Shown here: piece by piece, positions 6,165 through 16,459 of the stretch
Position numbering within the stretch: position 1 is the first letter of the stretch
Layout of the letters: every line of letters starts with the position of its first letter
Assembly: GCF_900167475.1 (NCBI RefSeq)
Contig: NZ_LT796768.1
Coordinates: 682,001-746,000 of the forward strand
Direction: 5' to 3'
Source of the DNA: Aeromicrobium choanae
GTDB lineage: Bacteria; Actinomycetota; Actinomycetes; Propionibacteriales; Nocardioidaceae
Length of the DNA stretch: 64,000 nucleotides
Made by a program: the position numbers and the translations under genes
Notes under the pieces: generated by a model
Told to the model about the DNA's origin: nothing
Database searches by the model: none
What the model saw: the letters and a program-made list of their open reading frames with translations, nothing else

Positions 6165-7652
6165 ATGACCGAGACCATCCACCCCACCACCGAGTCCGCC
6201 AACCGGTACCTCCGCGACAACTTCGCGCCGGTGCGCGAGGAGCTCACCGCCACCGACCTCACCGTCACCGGTCGCCTGCCCGACCACCTCGACGGCCGCT
6301 ACCTGCGCATCGGCCCCAACCCGCTCGACGACCCCGGCGACCAGCACCACTGGTTCCTCGGCGAGGGCATGGTGCACGGCGTGCGGATCCGAGACGGGCA
6401 CGCCGAGTGGTACCGCAACCGCTGGGTGCGCTCGGCCGCCGTCGCCGACAGCCTGGGCGAGCCGCACCGTGGGACGCCCGGCGAGCGCGACTTCGCCGCG
6501 AACACGAACGTGCTGGAGCACCACGGCCGCACCCTGGCGCTCGTCGAGGCCGGGGCACCTCCCTACGAGCTGACCCACGACCTCGACACGGTCGGGCCGT
6601 GCGACTTCGGCGGCACCCTGCCGAGCATCCCCGGCCGCCCGGGCTACGCCGCGCACCCCCACCGCGACCCGGGCACCGGCGAGCTGCACGCCCTCTCCTA
6701 CAACTGGACGGCCGGAAATCGCGTGGCCTACTCGGTGCTCGGGAACGACGGTCGCATCAGGCGGAGCGTCGACGTCGAGGTGCACGGCAGCCCGATGATG
6801 CACGACTTCGCCCTCACCGAGCGTCACGTCGTGATCCTCGACCTGCCCGTCACGTTCGACATCGCCACGGCCACCGAGGACGTGCCGCGCCTCGTCCGGC
6901 CCCTCGTGCGCGGGCTGCTCAACCGCGTCATCGGGCGCAACCCGCTGCCCGAGCCGGTGATCGCGCGGATCGCCCGCGGCGGCGACGCGGTCTCCCTCCC
7001 CTACCGCTGGAACCCCGACTACCCGGCGAGGATCGGGATCATGCCGCGCGACGGCGACAGCGCCTCCGTCCGCTGGTTCGAGATCGCGCCCTGCTACGTG
7101 TTCCACACCCTCAACGCGTACGACGACGGCGACACCGTGGTGGTCGACGTGATCCGCCACCCGACGATGTTCGCGACCGTGCTGAACGGGCCGAACGAGG
7201 GACCCGCGGTCCTCACCCGGTTCACCCTCGACCTGCGGACGGGACAGGCCCGCGAGACCGGCATCGACCAGCGCTCGCAGGAGTTCCCGCGGCACGACGA
7301 GCGGCTCACGGGACGGCGGCACCGTTATGGCTGGGCGGTCGGCTTCGAGGACGGCGCGCCGGGCGACACGCTGCTGCGTCACGACCTCGACACCGGCTCC
7401 ACGGAGTCGCGCCGCCTCGGCGCGGGCCTGGAGGCGAGCGAGTTCTGCTTCGTGCCGAACCCCGACGGCACGGCCGAGGACGACGGCGTGCTGATGGGCT
7501 ACGTGCACGACCGCGCGGAGGGGCGCAGCCAGCTGCGGGTGCTCGACGCAGCGACGCTCGACGACGTGGCCACCGTGCACCTGCCCGGCCGGGTGCCGGC
7601 CGGCTTCCACGGGAACTGGGCCCCGGAGGGCGCCGACCTCGCGGACGTGTGA
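6165..7652 (+). CDS. carotenoid/lignostilbene oxygenase family protein
   Basis: A 495-residue seven-bladed beta-propeller dioxygenase. All four iron-binding histidines are visible: His164 (AAHPHRDP), His213 (MMHDFA), His314 (VFHTLN) and His482 (GFHGNW). The start GRLPDHLDGRYLRIGPNPL is the family signature. Such enzymes cleave a conjugated double bond in carotenoids, apocarotenoids or stilbenes; no carotenoid genes lie nearby, so a stilbene-like or environmental substrate is equally likely. A Shine-Dalgarno AGGAGAG precedes the ATG. Control by the divergent TetR protein through the twin operators is expected, perhaps relieved by the substrate. Confidence 0.92.
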   Translation: MTETIHPTTESANRYLRDNFAPVREELTATDLTVTGRLPDHLDGRYLRIGPNPLDDPGDQHHWFLGEGMVHGVRIRDGHAEWYRNRWVRSAAVADSLGEPHRGTPGERDFAANTNVLEHHGRTLALVEAGAPPYELTHDLDTVGPCDFGGTLPSIPGRPGYAAHPHRDPGTGELHALSYNWTAGNRVAYSVLGNDGRIRRSVDVEVHGSPMMHDFALTERHVVILDLPVTFDIATATEDVPRLVRPLVRGLLNRVIGRNPLPEPVIARIARGGDAVSLPYRWNPDYPARIGIMPRDGDSASVRWFEIAPCYVFHTLNAYDDGDTVVVDVIRHPTMFATVLNGPNEGPAVLTRFTLDLRTGQARETGIDQRSQEFPRHDERLTGRRHRYGWAVGFEDGAPGDTLLRHDLDTGSTESRRLGAGLEASEFCFVPNPDGTAEDDGVLMGYVHDRAEGRSQLRVLDAATLDDVATVHLPGRVPAGFHGNWAPEGADLADV

Positions 7653-9834: not shown

Positions 9835-9884
9835 CGATCTTGTGTCGATTGAGCCCAAATGTGGGCGTCAACGGCACAAGATCG
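9835..9884. repeat. 50-nt imperfect inverted repeat / hairpin
   Basis: Arms of 23 nt (9835-9857 and 9862-9884) pair at 18 positions around a 4-nt AATG loop; the outer ten pairs, CGATCTTGTG with CACAAGATCG, are perfect. It sits just downstream of the DUF3052 gene and at the left border of a gene-decay zone. It may terminate transcription (no U-run follows), or be a remnant of a mobile element end or a dispersed palindromic repeat. Confidence 0.55.
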
Positions 9885-9926
9885 CGAACCGCGACGCACC
9901 AGGCGGCCCGCGTGGCACGATCAGGC

Positions 9927-10330
9927 ATGCTCACCGTCTCGTGACGCTGGTCGATCGCTCTCGCCGCGCTCGCGCTCGTCGCCGTGGTCTCAGCGACCAT
10001 CGACTACCACGAGGTGGAGCTGCCGTTCGACATCCGGTGACTCCCCTTCGGCACTGTCGGCCCGGAGTGGTCACTCGGGGTGGCCACGGCCTGCTGCCTC
10101 ATCGGCACCTTCCTCGCGCCGACACGCCGTCAGTGGTTCAAGGTGTGCGCGGTCGTCGCCGGGGTGCTGTTCTACACCTCGACCTTCCACACCGGCGCTG
10201 GCGAGTCGAACGAGTTTCCCAGCGTGATCCTGCCCTACCTCCTGCTGGTGCCCCTGAATCTGCTCGTCGGCACCACGTTGGTCCGGGTGGCCGTCGACGG
10301 CGGCAGGCGACCGGAGCGGCAACTCACACA
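9927..10330 (+). pseudogene. small membrane protein remnant with two in-frame TGA codons
   Basis: One frame carries a continuous membrane-protein-like sequence interrupted by TGA at 9942-9944 and 10038-10040. It reads MLTVS*RWSIALAALALVAV, DYHEVELPFDIR*LPFGTVG, WSLGVATACCLIGTFLAPTR and [20 protein letters not shown]. Three or four hydrophobic helices can be seen. The family is not recognised. The frame then runs into the inverted ychF fragment, where its 3' end was probably lost. Simple nonsense decay is the likeliest reading. Confidence 0.6.
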
Positions 10331-10333
10331 TTT

Positions 10334-10465
10334 GAGGCGGAACTCCACCACGTCGCCGTCAACCATGACGTAGTCCTTGCCCTCCATGCGCACCTTGCCG
10401 GCGGCCTTCGCGTCGTTCATCGAGCTGGCAGCGACCAGGTCCCGAAGGACACGATTCCCGGCCCG
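10334..10465 (-). pseudogene. decayed duplicate of the 3' end of ychF
   Basis: On the minus strand it encodes [20 protein letters not shown] followed by [16 protein letters not shown], nearly identical to the C-terminus of the intact YchF at 16549-17637. Over 10334-10440 I count 99 of 107 matching bases with 16558-16664. An extra A near 10334 destroys the natural stop, and a one-base deletion near 10441 shifts the frame upstream. Only the last 40 or so codons remain. It may be the relic of a second ychF copy or of a recombination event. Confidence 0.85.
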
Positions 10466-10777
10466 ATCCGTCACGCGGCCAGCGGCGTCGCCTTCTGGGG
10501 AACGCTGCCGTACGGCTCGAACGTCGGAGGCCGCTCGCTGACCGTCACTGCAGGAACTCGCCGGGGATGCCCGTCGTGTCCGTCACGGCGCCAGCCTAGG
10601 TCGCGACGAAGAGCTCCAGCAGCGCCTGCGCCTGCCGCCGGCGCCAACGGCCATCGCGGGCAGGCCGGGCCGCCCCTCACCTGCGGTGGGTGATGTCCTG
10701 CTCTTCGCCACGCGGCACAGTGGCTGACGGGGGTGCGGTGTCGCAACGGCGCGACCTCCACCGTCCGGAAGGCACAG
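10466..10777. other. gene-poor decay region with gene-end remnants
   Basis: No intact gene is visible. On the minus strand a frame ends ARDGRWRRRQAQALLELFVA-Thr-stop (TAG at 10596-10598), which looks like a C-terminus without its gene. The same TAG is part of a TAGGCT -10-like box, followed after 6 nt by a GTG (10586) that opens a 13-codon frame ([13 protein letters not shown], stop at 10545). These look like leftovers of at least two genes. Confidence 0.4.
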
Positions 10778-11557
10778 GTGCCGAACGTGACCGATCAATC
10801 GCAGGGCCGACTCTCGGATGCGCAGGTCGCCGAGCTGCTCGCGCTGACCAGGGACGTGGACAGCGTCGAGCTCAAGATGACCGTGCCGGACTCGGATCGA
10901 CGCGCTGCCGTGGTGGCCCTGGGGATGGATGCGCTCGATGCCCAGATTCGCCAGGTGTACTTCTTCGACACTCCTGACCTGAGGCTCGACGAGCACGGTG
11001 TCGTCGTCCGGGCCCGCCGAGCGCAGCGGCGGGGAGACGACTCGGTGGTCAAGCTGAGGCCCGTGGCGCCGGCTCACATCCAGGAGGCGTGGGCCTCGGA
11101 CAACCTCGGGGTGGAGGTCGACGCGATGCCCGGGGGCTTCGTCTGCTCGGCGTCCATGAAAGCCACGTGGGAACCGACCCTGGTGAAGGAGGTCGCCTCA
11201 GGCGCGAAGGCGATCCACAAGGCGTACTCCAAGGAGCAACGATCGTTCTTCACGGCCCATGCGCCCGATGGTGTCGAACTGGACGACCTGTCGATCCTCG
11301 GCCCCATCACCGTGCTCAAGCTGAAGCTGCATCCACCCGAGCTGCGCATGCGTCTCGTCGCGGAGCTCTGGCTCTACCCAGATGGCTCTCGGATCCTCGA
11401 GCTCTCGGCCAAGTGCCCGCCGGCGGAGACCTTTCAGGCCGCGGCCGAGCTGAGGGCCTTCCTGGCCATGAAAGGTCTTGACCTGTCGACCGAGCAGCAG
11501 ACGAAGACGAAGACGGCGCTCGAGTACTTCTCCGCCCAGCTTTCGGGGAGTGACTAG
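10778..11557 (+). CDS. CYTH-domain (triphosphate tunnel metalloenzyme-like) protein
   Basis: About 259 residues. A strand DSVELKMTVP (one Glu of the usual ExExK motif is kept, the first is Ser), then QVYFFDTPDLRLDEHGVVVR, SVVKLRPV, a mid-region MKATWEPTLVKEV, and late strands VLKLKL, LVAELWLYPDGSRILELSAK form the CYTH tunnel pattern of charged residues on alternating strands. CYTH proteins hydrolyse or bind triphosphates, including inorganic triphosphate and thiamine triphosphate. GTG at 10778 has a GGAAGG Shine-Dalgarno 5 nt upstream; GTG at 10787 is an alternative. It converges with a CYTH-like/Ppx fusion with a 4-bp overlap, which suggests a shared theme of polyphosphate or triphosphate handling. 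Confidence 0.75.
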   Translation: MPNVTDQSQGRLSDAQVAELLALTRDVDSVELKMTVPDSDRRAAVVALGMDALDAQIRQVYFFDTPDLRLDEHGVVVRARRAQRRGDDSVVKLRPVAPAHIQEAWASDNLGVEVDAMPGGFVCSASMKATWEPTLVKEVASGAKAIHKAYSKEQRSFFTAHAPDGVELDDLSILGPITVLKLKLHPPELRMRLVAELWLYPDGSRILELSAKCPPAETFQAAAELRAFLAMKGLDLSTEQQTKTKTALEYFSAQLSGSD

Positions 11558-13047
11558 CCGAATCTCTCGACCAGCAGGCCGTGTCGCAAGCCGCGATCGC
11601 TGACCGTGAGCGACTCCTTGCCGAACGCGGCGAGCACCGTTCGCACGATGCACGCACCCGCGAGGATGATGTCGGCCCGTTGGGGCTGCAAGCCGATGAT
11701 CGAACGACGCTCGTCACTGGAGCGCGTGCGGTAGAGCTCGATCTGCCGGTCGATCTCGGTCCTGTCGAGCACCGTGCCGTGGACGATGTCGGCGTCGTAC
11801 TCCCCCAGGGCGTGCATGACGGCGGCCATGTTGGTGACAGCGCCACCCATCGCCACGAGCAGGTTCGGTGTCGGCCGGTCGTCGAGCCGGCGGAGGTCCG
11901 CAGCGATCGCTGCGAACGCCTCGGCCAGGGCGTCTTCAGAGACTGCCGCGGCGAGGCCGTGTGCCTCCGTGTACCGAACAGCGCCCACGTCCACGCTGAA
12001 CCGCTCGTCGACCTGGTCACCGTGCCCGAACGTGAACTGCGAACTCCCGCCGCCGGTCTCGAAGACCACGAGGGAACCCGGTGCCGGTCCGATCCCTGCT
12101 CTCGTCCCGACATAGGCCAGTCGCGCCTCCTCGTCCCCTGAGACGACCTCGATCGTCAGACCACACCTGTTGCGGACGGCGGCGATGAGGTCCTCGCTGT
12201 TCGAGGCGATCCGCATGCCGGCGGTGCCCACCGCGACTGTTTCCGCGGCGCCTGCCTGTGCGGCCTCGTCCGCCATGGCGACGATGGCCTCCACCGTCCG
12301 TCCCATGGGGTCCGGGCTGAGTCGGTCGGTCTCGTGCAGGCCTTCCCCGAGCCGCGTGACCCGTGCGCGGTCGGCGACCGTCCGCCAGCGTCCGTCAGCG
12401 TCTCGTTCGCCGAGGTGGAACTTGACCGAGTTGGTGCCCACGTCGATGACGCCATAGCGCTCCGTGCCGAGTCGCAGGAGCGACTTGAGACCGCGCGGGA
12501 AGCTCACGTTGGGCATCGGTGGCAACCCGAGCTCGCGGAGTGCGGCCATCACCATGGCCGGGTCCTCGGACTCGATCGCGATGGTGCGGGTCGATCCCTC
12601 CCCGCTGCCCACTTCGGTCAGCTCGGCCAGACAACCTCCGATGGTGTGGCGTTCCCGCCTCTTGTGCACGTCGGCCGCGACCACGTCGGGGTGGGGGTGC
12701 ACCAGTTCGTCCATGAACTGGCCCAGCGTGTACATGTCCCGTGCCAGAGGCGGCGACACGACGCCCAGAGCGGCGATGACGGTGCCGACGTCGGCCGAGG
12801 ACAGGGGGAAGCCAGCCTTCATCACCGGGGACCACTGCTGGAGCCCACGCTCGTCCACGGCGACGAGGTGCTTGACGTCCATCAGGTCGTCGCGGATCTT
12901 GACGGTGTCGGTTCCCTCGGCCGACAGCAGGTAGAGCTCGTCGCTCTCCTGAATCCGGTCGGGAGGCGAGAGCATCTGCGCCGACCCGATGTCGACGGCT
13001 GAGGCGGCGAAGCTGCGCCACTCCCATCGCGGGGTCGTCTCGGTCAC
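11554..13047 (-). CDS. fused CYTH-like + Ppx/GppA exopolyphosphatase-like protein
   Basis: About 497 residues in two parts. Residues 1-190 look like a divergent CYTH/TTM barrel: PRWEWRSFA, ELYLLSAEGTDTVKIRDDLM, LQQWSPVMKAGFPL, RRERHTIGGCLAELTEV, TIAIESEDPAMVMAALRELG. From about residue 197 it is a Ppx/GppA phosphatase of the ASKHA fold: YGVIDVGTNSVKFHLGE, VAVGTAGMRIASNSEDL, EVVSGDEEARLAYVGTR. The usual metal-site motif DIGGGSTE reads ETGGGSSQ here, replacing the Asp with Glu and the final Glu with Gln. Ppx enzymes release phosphate from polyphosphate or from guanosine pentaphosphate. Activity, or a binding-only role, is undecided. The start could also be GTG at 13059. Confidence 0.8.
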   Translation of the reverse strand: MTETTPRWEWRSFAASAVDIGSAQMLSPPDRIQESDELYLLSAEGTDTVKIRDDLMDVKHLVAVDERGLQQWSPVMKAGFPLSSADVGTVIAALGVVSPPLARDMYTLGQFMDELVHPHPDVVAADVHKRRERHTIGGCLAELTEVGSGEGSTRTIAIESEDPAMVMAALRELGLPPMPNVSFPRGLKSLLRLGTERYGVIDVGTNSVKFHLGERDADGRWRTVADRARVTRLGEGLHETDRLSPDPMGRTVEAIVAMADEAAQAGAAETVAVGTAGMRIASNSEDLIAAVRNRCGLTIEVVSGDEEARLAYVGTRAGIGPAPGSLVVFETGGGSSQFTFGHGDQVDERFSVDVGAVRYTEAHGLAAAVSEDALAEAFAAIAADLRRLDDRPTPNLLVAMGGAVTNMAAVMHALGEYDADIVHGTVLDRTEIDRQIELYRTRSSDERRSIIGLQPQRADIILAGACIVRTVLAAFGKESLTVSDRGLRHGLLVERFG

Positions 13048-13086
13048 GATCAGGACCACCTCCGACTGGGGACGCTCGACGCCAGA

Positions 13087-14781
13087 CTACGCCGTGAGCT
13101 CGGTGACCCGCCCGGCCTCGACGTGCCAGCGACGGTCGAGACGCACCGTGCTCAGCATGCGACGGTCGTGGGTCACCAGCAGCAGCGCGCCCTCATACGT
13201 CTCGAGCGCCTGCTCCAGCTGCTCGATCGCGGGCAGGTCGAGGTGGTTGGTGGGCTCGTCGAGCACCAGCACGTTGACGCCGCGGCCCTGCAGCAGCGCG
13301 AGTCCGGCGCGGGTGCGCTCGCCGGGCGACAGCTCGCCGACGGGTCGGGTCACATGATCGGCCTTCAGCCCGAACTTCGCCAGCAGGGTGCGCACGTCGG
13401 CCGGCGACATGTCGGGCACGAGCCTCTCGAACACGTCGGTCAGCGTGGCCGCTCCGGTGAACAACGAGCGCGCCTGGTCCACCTCGCCGATCGCGACGGA
13501 CGCACCCAGCCCGACCGTTCCGCTCGTCAGCTCCTGCCGACCCAGCAGCGCCCGCAGCAGCGTTGACTTGCCGGCACCGTTCGGGCCGGTGATGCCGATG
13601 CGCTCGCCGGCGTTGAGCTGCACCGAGACCGGGCCGAGCGTGAACTCCCCCTGCCGCACCGTGGCGTGGTTGAGCGTGGACACCACGGAACTCGAGCGCG
13701 GCGCTGCGCCGATCGTGAACTCCAGCTTCCACTCCTTGCGCGGCTCCTCGACCTCCTCGAGCCGGCTGATGCGGCTCTCCATCTGCCGCACCTTCTGCGC
13801 CTGCTTCTCGCTCGACTCCGACGCGGCCTTGCGGCGAATCTTGTCGTTGTCCGGGTTCTTCTTCATCGCATTGCGCACGCCCTGGCTGGACCACTCGCGC
13901 TGCACGCGGGCGCGCCCGACCAGGTCTGCCTTCCTGGCCGCGAACTCCTCGTACTCGTCGCGCTGGTGCTGGCGGGCGATCTCGCGTTCCTCCAGGTACG
14001 ACTCGTAGCCGCCACCGAACACCCGATTCCTGTGCTGGGCGAGGTCGAGCTCGAGGACGCGGGTCACGCAGCGCGCCAGGAACTCGCGGTCGTGGCTCAC
14101 CAGCACGACGCCGCCGCGCAGGCCCTGCACGAACTTCTCCAGGCGTTCGAGGCCGTCCAGGTCCAGGTCATTCGTGGGCTCGTCGAGCATCACGATGTCG
14201 AACCGCGACAGCAGCAGCGCGGCCAGGCCCACGCGCGCGGCCTGGCCGCCGGACAGCGACGTCATCAGGCTGTCGGGCGAGAGCGCACCGGCGTTCGGGT
14301 CGGCTGAGTCCTCCAGCACGAGCCCCAACTCGGCGAGCACGGCCGGGAGTCGGTCCTCCAGGTCGGCAGCGCCGCTGGCCATCCAGCGGTCGAGCGCCGC
14401 CTGGTAGACGTCGGCGGGGTCGGGCGCGTCAGGAGCGGGAGGTTCGGTGTCGCCCAGCGCCACGGCCGCGGCGTCCATGTCGGTGGTCGCGGCGGCACAG
14501 CCGGTGCGGCGCGCGACGAACTGCGCAATCGTCTCGCCCGGGACCCGCTCGTGCTCCTGCAGCAGACTTCCCACGAACGCGTCGGCCGGCGCGAGCTGCA
14601 CCGTGCCGGCCTGCGGCTCCAGGTCTCCGGCCAGGATGCGCAACAAGGTCGACTTTCCAGCCCCGTTGACACCCACCACGCCGACGACGTCGCCCGGCGC
14701 GACCGTCAGGTCGAGGTCGTCGAAGAGCGTCCGGTGCGCGTGGCCACCGGCCAGTCCGGTGGCGACGAGTGTTGCGGTCAT
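13087..14781 (-). CDS. ABC-F family ATPase
   Basis: A 564-residue soluble protein with two ATP-binding cassettes and no membrane domain. The first Walker A is GVNGAGKST at 37-45, with signature LSGGQAARVGL and Walker B IVMLDEPTNDLD. The second half has GPNGAGKST, signature LSPGERTRAGL and VLVLDEPTNHLD. A charged linker (ARKADLVGRARVQREWS and on) joins them, as in ABC-F translation factors that bind the ribosomal E site. Some ABC-F proteins protect ribosomes from antibiotics and others tune translation; the linker alone does not decide. SD AGAGGAA precedes the ATG. It lies 58 bp after another ABC-F gene in the same direction. Confidence 0.9.
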   Translation of the reverse strand: MTATLVATGLAGGHAHRTLFDDLDLTVAPGDVVGVVGVNGAGKSTLLRILAGDLEPQAGTVQLAPADAFVGSLLQEHERVPGETIAQFVARRTGCAAATTDMDAAAVALGDTEPPAPDAPDPADVYQAALDRWMASGAADLEDRLPAVLAELGLVLEDSADPNAGALSPDSLMTSLSGGQAARVGLAALLLSRFDIVMLDEPTNDLDLDGLERLEKFVQGLRGGVVLVSHDREFLARCVTRVLELDLAQHRNRVFGGGYESYLEEREIARQHQRDEYEEFAARKADLVGRARVQREWSSQGVRNAMKKNPDNDKIRRKAASESSEKQAQKVRQMESRISRLEEVEEPRKEWKLEFTIGAAPRSSSVVSTLNHATVRQGEFTLGPVSVQLNAGERIGITGPNGAGKSTLLRALLGRQELTSGTVGLGASVAIGEVDQARSLFTGAATLTDVFERLVPDMSPADVRTLLAKFGLKADHVTRPVGELSPGERTRAGLALLQGRGVNVLVLDEPTNHLDLPAIEQLEQALETYEGALLLVTHDRRMLSTVRLDRRWHVEAGRVTELTA

Positions 14782-14839: not shown

Positions 14840-16459
14840 TCAGCGGTCGCGCTGCACGCGTCCCTCGTCCCACACGGGCTCCGAGCTCTCGCGCACCACG
14901 CCGTCGGCCCCGAAGACCAGGAATCGGTCGAAGGTCTTGGCGAACCAACGGTCGTGGGTCACGGCCAGGACGGTGCCCTCGTATGACTCGAGCGCGGACT
15001 GCAGCGCCTCGGCCGACTCCAGGTCGAGGTTGTCGGTGGGCTCGTCGAGCAGCAGCGACGTCGCTCCGCCGAGCTCGAGGCGCAGGATCTGCACCCGCGC
15101 CCTCTGCCCTCCCGAGAGCCGCTCGTACGTGGTCTCGGCCTGCTGCTCCAGCTCGTAGCGACGCAGTGACGACATCGCCGGCCCGCGCTGCAGCGCATGC
15201 TCGGCCCACAGGATGTCCAGGAGCGTGCGGCCCTCGAGCTCGGGGTAGGCGTGGGTCTGTCCGAAGTGACCCGGCACGACCCTCGCGCCGAGCTTCCACG
15301 TACCCGAGTGGTCGACCGGCTGGCCCGCCAGCAGGCGCAGGAAGTGCGACTTGCCCGAGCCGTTCGAGCCGAGCACGGCCACCCGCTCGCCCTGGAACAC
15401 CTCGAGGTCGAACGGCATCATCAGGCCCGTCAGCTCCAGCTTCTCGATGGTGATCGCCCGCACGCCGGTGCGGCCGCCCTTCAGGCGCATCGTGATGTCC
15501 TGATCGCGCGGCGGCTCAGGGGGTGGCCCGATCTCCTCGAACTTCCTCAGCCGGGTCTGCGCCGCGGCGTACCGCGACGCCATCGCATGGCTGACGGCGG
15601 CAGCCTGCTGCAGGCTCACCACCAGCTTCCTCAAGCGAGCGTGCTGCTCGTCCCACCGTTTGCGCAGCTCCTCGAACCGCGCGAAGCGCTGCGTGCGGGC
15701 CTCGTGGAAGGACGCGAAACCGCCTCCGTGCACCCACACGTCGGCCCCGGCCGGCGACGGCTCGACCGACAGGATCTTGTCAGCGGCCTCCGACAGCAGT
15801 TCACGGTCGTGCGAGACCAGCAGCACGGTCTTGCGGGTCTCGCGCAGCTGCTGCTCCAGCCGGCGCTTGGAGGGCACGTCGAGGTAGTTGTCGGGCTCGT
15901 CGAGCAGCAGCACCTCGGCCGGCCCGCGCAGCAACGCCTCCAGCACGACCCGCTTCTGCTCGCCGCCCGACAGCGTCACGGCCTCGCGGTCCATGACGGA
16001 GTAGTACGAGGCACCCAGTGCTTCGATCGTGCACATGTCCCAGGTGTTCTCGTAGTCGTAGCCGTCGGCCTCGGCCCAGTCCGAGAGCGCTTGGGCGTAG
16101 GCCATCTGCGTGGCCTCGTCGTCGTTCGAGGCCAGCGCGGCCTCGGCGGCGTCGACCGCCCGCGCGGCGTTGCGGATCCGGTCGGGCGCCACACTCACCA
16201 GCAGGTCACGCACCGTCGACCCGTCACGAACCGTGCCGACGAACTGCGGCATCACGGCCAGGCCACCGGAGACATTCACGGTGCCCGAGTCGGGCCTCAG
16301 GGAGCCGTCGATCAGCCTGAGCAGCGTCGACTTGCCGGCCCCGTTCGGGCCGACCAGCGCCACGACGGACCCCTCCCCCACGCGGAACGACACGTCACCG
16401 AGCAGCAACCGCCCGTCCGGCAGGACGTATTCCAGGTGTGCGACGTCGACGTGACCCAT
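14840..16459 (-). CDS. ABC-F family ATPase (second of a tandem pair)
   Basis: A 539-residue twin-cassette ABC-F protein, starting MGHVDVAHLEYVLPDGRLLL. Walker A GPNGAGKST at 37-45, signature LSGGEQKRVVLEAL and an unusual Walker B LLLDEPDNYLD in the first half; GSNGSGKSHF, LSGGQRARVQIL and LLLDEPTDNLD in the second. The linker carries a long helical pair (RFARFEELRKRWDEQHARL). It is not a close copy of the neighbouring ABC-F protein, so the pair is old or assembled from different lineages. Ribosome association is expected by family. Confidence 0.9.
   Translation of the reverse strand: MGHVDVAHLEYVLPDGRLLLGDVSFRVGEGSVVALVGPNGAGKSTLLRLIDGSLRPDSGTVNVSGGLAVMPQFVGTVRDGSTVRDLLVSVAPDRIRNAARAVDAAEAALASNDDEATQMAYAQALSDWAEADGYDYENTWDMCTIEALGASYYSVMDREAVTLSGGEQKRVVLEALLRGPAEVLLLDEPDNYLDVPSKRRLEQQLRETRKTVLLVSHDRELLSEAADKILSVEPSPAGADVWVHGGGFASFHEARTQRFARFEELRKRWDEQHARLRKLVVSLQQAAAVSHAMASRYAAAQTRLRKFEEIGPPPEPPRDQDITMRLKGGRTGVRAITIEKLELTGLMMPFDLEVFQGERVAVLGSNGSGKSHFLRLLAGQPVDHSGTWKLGARVVPGHFGQTHAYPELEGRTLLDILWAEHALQRGPAMSSLRRYELEQQAETTYERLSGGQRARVQILRLELGGATSLLLDEPTDNLDLESAEALQSALESYEGTVLAVTHDRWFAKTFDRFLVFGADGVVRESSEPVWDEGRVQRDR

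Follow-up and report, generated by a model that had tools for sequence, protein, structure and literature searches.

The window analysed here is a 64,000-nucleotide stretch of the Aeromicrobium choanae genome (contig NZ_LT796768.1, positions 682,001 to 746,000). On its minus strand, at 11554–13047, lies a gene whose 497-residue product joins an N-terminal domain resembling the triphosphate tunnel metalloenzymes (TTMs) to a Ppx/GppA domain; we call this product the fusion. Convergent with it, tail to tail and with overlapping stop codons, is a plus-strand gene (10778–11557, its start codon inferred) for a stand-alone, 259-residue protein of predicted TTM fold, which we call the partner and which was characterized by Foldseek, VIA-align, hhalign, and co-occurrence. 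A sequence-only reading of the window had placed one coding frame at 11554–13047, which is correct, but on the minus strand, a point absent from that reading, as is the convergent partner gene: from a GTG start at 13047 down to 11554 there is a single open frame of 497 codons, and a plus-strand reading is excluded by stops that interrupt the plus frame. An in-frame GTG at 13059 is a possible alternative start. A chance open reading frame or an assembly error as the source of the fusion is ruled out by 27 other fusions and by full-length homologues at 47–60% identity. A scan for promoters and terminators found none, and neither the fusion nor the partner matched a known defence system in PADLOC (threshold 0.01).

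The Ppx/GppA domain spans residues 197–497 (11557–12459, minus strand). Residues 217–494 match Pfam PF02541 (Ppx-GppA) at 3.3e-46 (158.4 bits, the cut-off being 27), which bears out the earlier assignment of everything after the N-terminal domain to this family. The predicted model of the fusion aligns to 1t6d_A with a Z of 36.2 and a root-mean-square deviation (rmsd) of 2.5 over 299 residues (VIA-align), indicating an exopolyphosphatase fold, and the closest PDB relatives of the C-terminal ~300 residues, in both fold and sequence, are exopolyphosphatases from Aquifex and elsewhere. For Deinococcus radiodurans PPX (DrPPX), the consulted portion of PMC11234463 names Asp7, Arg86, Glu114, and Asp136 as catalytic. 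The counterparts of the first three, D202 (12442–12444; Asp7 binds Mg), R279, and E307 (12127–12129; Glu114 is the catalytic Glu), are retained in all 28 fusions, and D202 and E307 also in 19/19 ordinary Ppx proteins. The latter are the best-scoring locus, one per genome, from 58 related genomes searched, so that paralogues are under-sampled among them. At the position of Asp136, residue 330, 26 of the 28 fusions have Asp and two have Glu, and the window protein is itself one that departs from Asp. In a midpoint-rooted tree of 47 rows, the Ppx domains of all 28 fusions fall into one clade (support 0.82).

The same genome encodes a polyphosphate kinase (PF02503) and has two further Ppx/GppA genes, at 1113890–1114804 and 784073–785029, which are 28–29% identical to the Ppx domain of the fusion; the match at 784073–785029 contains one TAG. 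Because the host has this kinase and these two genes, the fusion probably supplies an extra, specialized activity.

What distinguishes the fusions from ordinary Ppx proteins lies in a loop of this domain, ETGGGSSQ in the window gene (E330 to Q337; 12037–12060, minus strand), where the frame reads VVFETGGGSSQFTF. That this loop departs from the usual DxGGGSTE was confirmed on reading the minus-strand frame, and comparison of the homologues separates the two substitutions that had been pointed out. The change of the last Glu to Gln holds family-wide: the final residue is Gln in 28/28 fusions versus Glu in 19/19 ordinary Ppx proteins from related genomes. The change of the metal-binding Asp to Glu holds for the window gene and one 93%-identical relative, whereas the other 26 fusions keep Asp, and the loop consensus over all 28, window gene included, is [D/E]xGGGS[S/T]Q. 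Asp-to-Glu, found in just 2/28, is thus excluded as the defining change of the group.

The Gln brings the loop close to that of the NTPDases. In PDB sequences of NTPDase1 and NTPDase2 the equivalent loop reads GGASTQITF or GGSSTQITF, and in the window fusion GGGSSQFTF; all 28 fusions have the NTPDase form GGxS[S/T]Q, which we take to be apyrase conserved region 4, and 23 of them follow GGGS[S/T]Q with x-T-F. PDB entry 4BRD is titled as a Q193E variant of NTPDase1, and we take Q193 to be the equivalent of the loop Gln. Because the NTPDase1 and NTPDase2 loops and the x-T-F tail agree with the fusions, the loop seems to have shifted toward the NTPDase form and not to have decayed at random. NTPDases and apyrases (GDA1_CD39) also share the ASKHA core with the fusion model (VIA-align Z 17.8–20.6). 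Unlike them, the fusion belongs to a two-gene bacterial module with TTM-like domains, and its overall sequence similarity to NTPDases is not significant (profile E 2.9–3.1). The portions consulted of PMC5803232, PMC8004787, and PMC12489842 do not give the role of the NTPDase loop Gln, and a literature text search for the loop motif returned no phosphatase work by title or abstract.

The N-terminal domain, residues 1–193 (12469–13047, minus strand), is predicted to be an eight-stranded, TTM-like barrel. In the fusion model (AlphaFold2 on 24 fusions; mean pLDDT 87.4, pTM 0.60), DSSP assigns strands at 7–13, 31–42, 48–52, 55–64, and 70–79, two helices, strands at 122–136, 139–148, and 151–160, and a further helix, an order that we read from the model as that of TTM proteins; residues 16–19 and 21–24 are poorly predicted. 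Two of the other fusions (L076, 5148–6557; L077, 5187–6617) are without the helical stretch of ~25 residues between strands five and six. A Foldseek search of viral proteins (BFVD) with the whole fusion model gave five CYTH-named matches (E 2.5e-5 to 8e-4) and a capping enzyme, together with NTPDase-, Hsp70-, and RNase H-like folds. The CYTH-named matches most likely stem from the N-terminal half of the model, the Ppx half being an unlikely cause. A PDB fold search with the whole fusion gave no CYTH chain among the matches listed, which were Ppx and NTPDase chains; because such chains fill the listed matches, this is no evidence against a TTM fold.

Ten residues of this domain are invariant in 33/33 rows: R7, E9, R11, K50, R52, K59, K129, R131, E142, and E159. 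In SaTTM, according to the portion of PMC8233210 consulted, the triphosphate is gripped by R56, R58, K69, K110, and R112, and metals are bound by the motifs ExExK and ExE, metal 2 by the second Glu of ExE. Paired with these by motif order rather than by superposition, K50, R52, K59, K129, and R131 would be the gripping residues, with K50-x-R52 (12892–12900) as the counterpart of the phosphate-gripping RxR. The metal-binding motifs have fared differently. R7-W-E9-W-R11 (13015–13029), the counterpart of the hallmark ExExK, has Arg for the first Glu and reads RxExR in every row, and at position 161, where ExE has its second Glu, just 13/33 rows keep that residue.

For the partner, the fold match is firmer. 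Its model (AlphaFold2 on 17 homologues; pLDDT 79.2, pTM 0.74) matches AtTTM3 at 1.3e-9 (Foldseek) and aligns to Bacillus halodurans BH2851 (2gfg_A) with a Z of 15.7 and an rmsd of 2.9 over 184 residues (VIA-align). A profile of the partner aligns with 29 classical CYTH rows, drawn from 29/30 loci, at 6e-6 over 74 columns (hhalign). The window partner scores below the Pfam CYTH cut-off (PF01928; 15.1 bits versus 23.2), yet it is the sole PF01928 match in a genome with none above the cut-off, and 11 of 17 partner homologues match this model with an E no higher than 0.1, the best being 0.00094. Profile searches of the PDB with the partner or with the N-terminal domain gave no matches up to an E of 10.

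The partner shows the same pattern of retention and loss. S27-V-E29-L-K31 (numbered from 10784; 10862–10876, plus strand) is the counterpart of ExExK with its first Glu lost: position 27 is Ser, Ala, Gly, or Thr in 20/20 rows, and E29 and K31 are kept in 20/20. E206-L-S208 (11399–11407, plus strand) is the counterpart of ExE, its second Glu, for metal 2, replaced by Ser; E206 and S208 are invariant (20/20), as are the basic residues R76, R78, K90, R92, and K181. Judged from these alignments, both tunnels appear to keep the basic residues that grip phosphate and to have lost hallmark metal ligands, chiefly for metal 2.

Full-length fusions number 28 with the window gene. They occur in 22/341 genomes of the family to which the window belongs, its host genome among them, in Cellulomonas humilata, on plasmid pMTS1 of Cupriavidus sp. 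P-10, and in four further genomes (G742, G1164, G1173, and G1193). They thus span the family, other genera, at least one other class of the phylum, and a betaproteobacterial replicon, and because of this spread the fusion is not a local oddity. It is rare, nonetheless: in even draws a match to the N-terminal domain, stand-alone and weak ones included, was found in 3/393 genomes of the class and 6/396 of the phylum. These searches scored part of the first-look candidates (at most nine or at most seven per genome), which makes the counts lower bounds. A 23rd family match (G554), weak and without a Ppx domain, was dropped, and three matches, none with Ppx, were left out of all counts: L078 (E 1.6e-4), L083 (7.9e-6), and L128 (6.3e-10, partial, in an overlapped open reading frame). 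A search of viral contigs led nowhere.

The partner accompanies the fusion throughout, being present in all 28 fusion-bearing genomes or records, among them Cellulomonas, Cupriavidus, and all four further genomes. Across the 341 genomes of the family, 22 have both genes, 11 have just the partner, and 308 lack both, so that no genome has a fusion without a partner; some of the 11 could hide a fusion because only part of the first-look candidates was scored. Within the stretches fetched around the fusions, the partner is near in 19/28 (18/25 plus 1/3). In 15 cases, read from gene tables, the two are immediate neighbours, five times convergent, six times with the partner first, and four times with the fusion first; in two more (L062 and L069) a SulP permease gene alone separates them, and in L073 and L074 they lie a few kilobases apart. 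Chance adjacency of the pair is ruled out by the presence of the partner in all 28 genomes or records despite differing gene orders. Because gene order changes and the hosts are distant, shared function is a better account than inheritance as a block, with the proviso that related genomes are not independent. That the fusion always occurs with the partner suggests that the two form a complex or act on a common substrate.

From the observed conservation and co-occurrence and from the two predicted folds, we infer a two-gene module in which the partner tunnel and the fused tunnel capture the end of a polyphosphate or triphosphate, which the NTPDase-like Ppx domain hydrolyses; we regard this as our best reading, at slightly less than an even chance. 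It takes up a suggestion of the sequence-only reading, in which a single chain could hold a polyphosphate end and process it. The partner gene would supply a stand-alone TTM-fold protein, and the fusion another TTM-fold domain, further diverged and attached to the hydrolase. Both tunnels would grip a polyphosphate chain at its end, or else a short polyphosphate or nucleotide triphosphate, with poor or no hydrolysis, because the basic residues are kept and the metal ligands, above all for metal 2, are lost. The Ppx domain would be a working phosphoanhydride hydrolase with NTPDase-like chemistry, since Asp202, Arg279, Glu307, and mostly Asp330 are kept and Gln337 is as in NTPDases, and it would act on the chain that the tunnels present. 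The partner would be required, perhaps complexed with the tunnel that the fusion itself carries. A more specific version, a two-component system in which the free and the fused degenerate tunnels together thread or cap a chain of polyphosphate or triphosphate before passing it to the NTPDase-like Ppx domain, is possible but rather doubtful.

Several observations weigh against this two-tunnel module. First, the fold of the N-terminal domain, which the sequence-only reading had assigned to CYTH/TTM over its ~190 residues, receives uneven support. The strand order in the whole-fusion model and the conserved residues are as expected of a TTM barrel, but residues 1–193 have no match in Pfam or NCBIfam, PF01928 is matched by 0/28 fusions, hhalign comparisons of the domain with the 29 classical CYTH rows (p 0.19) and with the partner (p 0.12–0.17) are not significant, and ExExK is broken. 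The CYTH-named structural matches have modest TM-scores (0.16–0.50 on the target, with the whole fusion as query). Second, the partner is missing from 9/28 fetched stretches, though found elsewhere in those genomes. Third, the N-terminal domain also exists without Ppx, in five proteins, and the partner is present in only one of the five genomes concerned. Fourth, a TTM protein without the textbook ligands might use metal differently. Finally, in DrPPX the residue at the Gln position is Glu143, and with Ala in its place (E143A) kcat/Km falls from 2.28 to 0.04; the mutant table in the portion of PMC11234463 consulted has no Gln mutant. By analogy, Gln at this position may merely cripple the enzyme.

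Because of this mutant, the strongest rival is that the Ppx domain has become inactive or very slow through the exchange of Glu for Gln and that the module is a sensor, a polyphosphate or (p)ppGpp switch acting on membrane transport. Gene neighbourhoods offer it some support: a SulP-type permease gene adjoins the fusion in 7/25 loci (two of them Pfam-confirmed), and in several genomes with a solitary partner, or with one distant from the fusion, the partner has P-type cation ATPase genes as neighbours (one Pfam-confirmed). Such transporter neighbours are a minority, however, with none beside the window gene, and that 28/28 fusions conserve D202, R279, and E307 and are acidic at position 330 goes beyond the needs of a dead domain. 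Moreover, the loop Gln is the residue that NTPDases themselves have. We consider a sensor unlikely, though it deserves to be kept in mind.

The same NTPDase-type loop could instead mean that the fusion's Ppx domain is a phosphohydrolase of nucleoside tri- or diphosphates in which polyphosphate is not involved. There is precedent in two mycobacterial Ppx-GppA proteins with ATP- and ADP-hydrolysing activity, of which one has no detectable polyphosphate activity, according to the portion of PMC3411833 consulted. The domain is closest to exopolyphosphatases in both fold and sequence, however, and its NTPDase profile match, at an E of about 3, is not significant, which makes a pure nucleotide enzyme improbable.

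A relay of two enzymes, in which Ppx shortens long chains and the remaining tripolyphosphate is hydrolysed in one tunnel or in both, as by classical TTM enzymes, seems to us more improbable still. It would suit exopolyphosphatases, whose products can include short chains, and the partner does retain Glu29 as well as the first ExE glutamate and every basic residue counted; SaTTM, furthermore, is a tripolyphosphatase (PMC8233210, in the portion consulted). But the metal 2 Glu is Ser in 20/20 partners and is not conserved in the N-terminal domain, and both have lost the first Glu of ExExK. That the tunnel proteins make polyphosphate, as VTC4 does, with the Ppx domain as counter-activity, is very improbable: VTC is among the structural matches of the partner (3g3r_B, Z 8.9, rmsd 4.7, 191 aligned) and several TTM subunits come together in VTC complexes, as PDB titles indicate, but other TTM proteins match far better (Z 14.1–15.7) and a polyphosphate kinase is already encoded by the host.

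The two-tunnel module that we favour can be compared with several known systems. The pairing of domains has been mentioned before: a single sentence of PMC8233210, citing Iyer and Aravind 2002, reports CYTH domains fused to exopolyphosphatase, a pair of the same domain kinds as in the window fusion, and it is by this one-sentence mention that we know of them. The sequence-only reading had been aware of no characterized protein with this architecture, and indeed our literature search found no characterized CYTH-Ppx fusion (the partner, being nameless, was not searched for by name), but a pair of this kind is thus already on record. With the Ppx/GppA family (PF02541; DrPPX, Aquifex aeolicus Ppx, Escherichia coli PPX, and GppA) the fusion has in common the fold, similarity over the whole domain, and the catalytic Asp/Arg/Glu/Asp set. 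It differs in the loop Gln for Glu (28/28), in its constant partner gene, and in carrying an N-terminal tunnel domain, where most PPX proteins instead carry C-terminal domains 3 and 4. The CYTH/TTM proteins (AtTTM3, SaTTM, BH2851, and YgiF) give a solid fold match for the partner and, for the N-terminal domain, a likeness in predicted strand order and tunnel residues, but ExExK and ExE are broken in both, and Pfam does not recognize the N-terminal domain. By homology, then, the fusion appears to be a Ppx/GppA protein with one defining residue changed, and the tunnels appear to be TTM-fold proteins in which the CYTH hallmarks are broken.

The nearest working analogy is to the TTM-CHAD polyphosphatases of the YgiF type, which combine a polyphosphate-degrading domain with a polyphosphate-binding module, as we propose for the fusion. 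CHAD binds polyphosphate and raises the activity of YgiF, according to the portion of PMC6537752 consulted. The fusion has no CHAD domain, and the roles in it are probably swapped, with TTM as the binder and Ppx as the enzyme.

If the two-tunnel module is real, an enzyme would have been converted into a gripping module in both tunnels of one system, and the family of the fused tunnel is one absent from Pfam. A constant pair of tunnels around a re-tuned exopolyphosphatase would then constitute a new binding module; to our knowledge, few bacterial proteins are known to handle polyphosphate. The system could show what TTM folds do after loss of the second metal, and it is a natural Glu-to-Gln experiment at the loop that separates Ppx proteins from NTPDases.

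The five proteins with a stand-alone N-terminal domain all come from outside the window's class (L080, 5469–6086; L081, 5798–6400; L082, 5837–6439; L126, 6067–6648; L127, 5906–6487). In three of the five, L081, L126, and L127, a CYTH gene directly adjoins the domain gene; those of L081 and L126 are above the Pfam cut-off, and that of L127 (6478–6963), found by translation, is near-identical to the one in L126. In L081 a gene of the histidine phosphatase superfamily also adjoins.

Among neighbouring genes, the SulP sulfate-permease-like gene adjoins the fusion in L062, L066, L069, L070, L072, L075, and L077; the confirmed ones are at 6991–8742 in L062 and 6910–8679 in L069. P-type cation ATPase, DUF1269, DUF6325, or SHOCT genes lie near the partner or the fusion in L158, L152–L155, L068, L070, and L074, a neighbourhood that may be a stress cassette; these genes are Pfam-confirmed in L158 and L068 only, the others being assigned by likeness. 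On a Nostoc plasmid (L028), whose fetched stretch includes no annotated gene recognizable as a fusion, a partner-like gene (9869–10720) is followed by one annotated as hypothetical (11539–13173) that matches the C-terminal model of DyP-type peroxidases. In the window itself, directly upstream of the fusion and codirectional with it on the minus strand, are two ABC-F-like ATPase genes (13087–14781 and 14840–16459), identified by eye from their translations.

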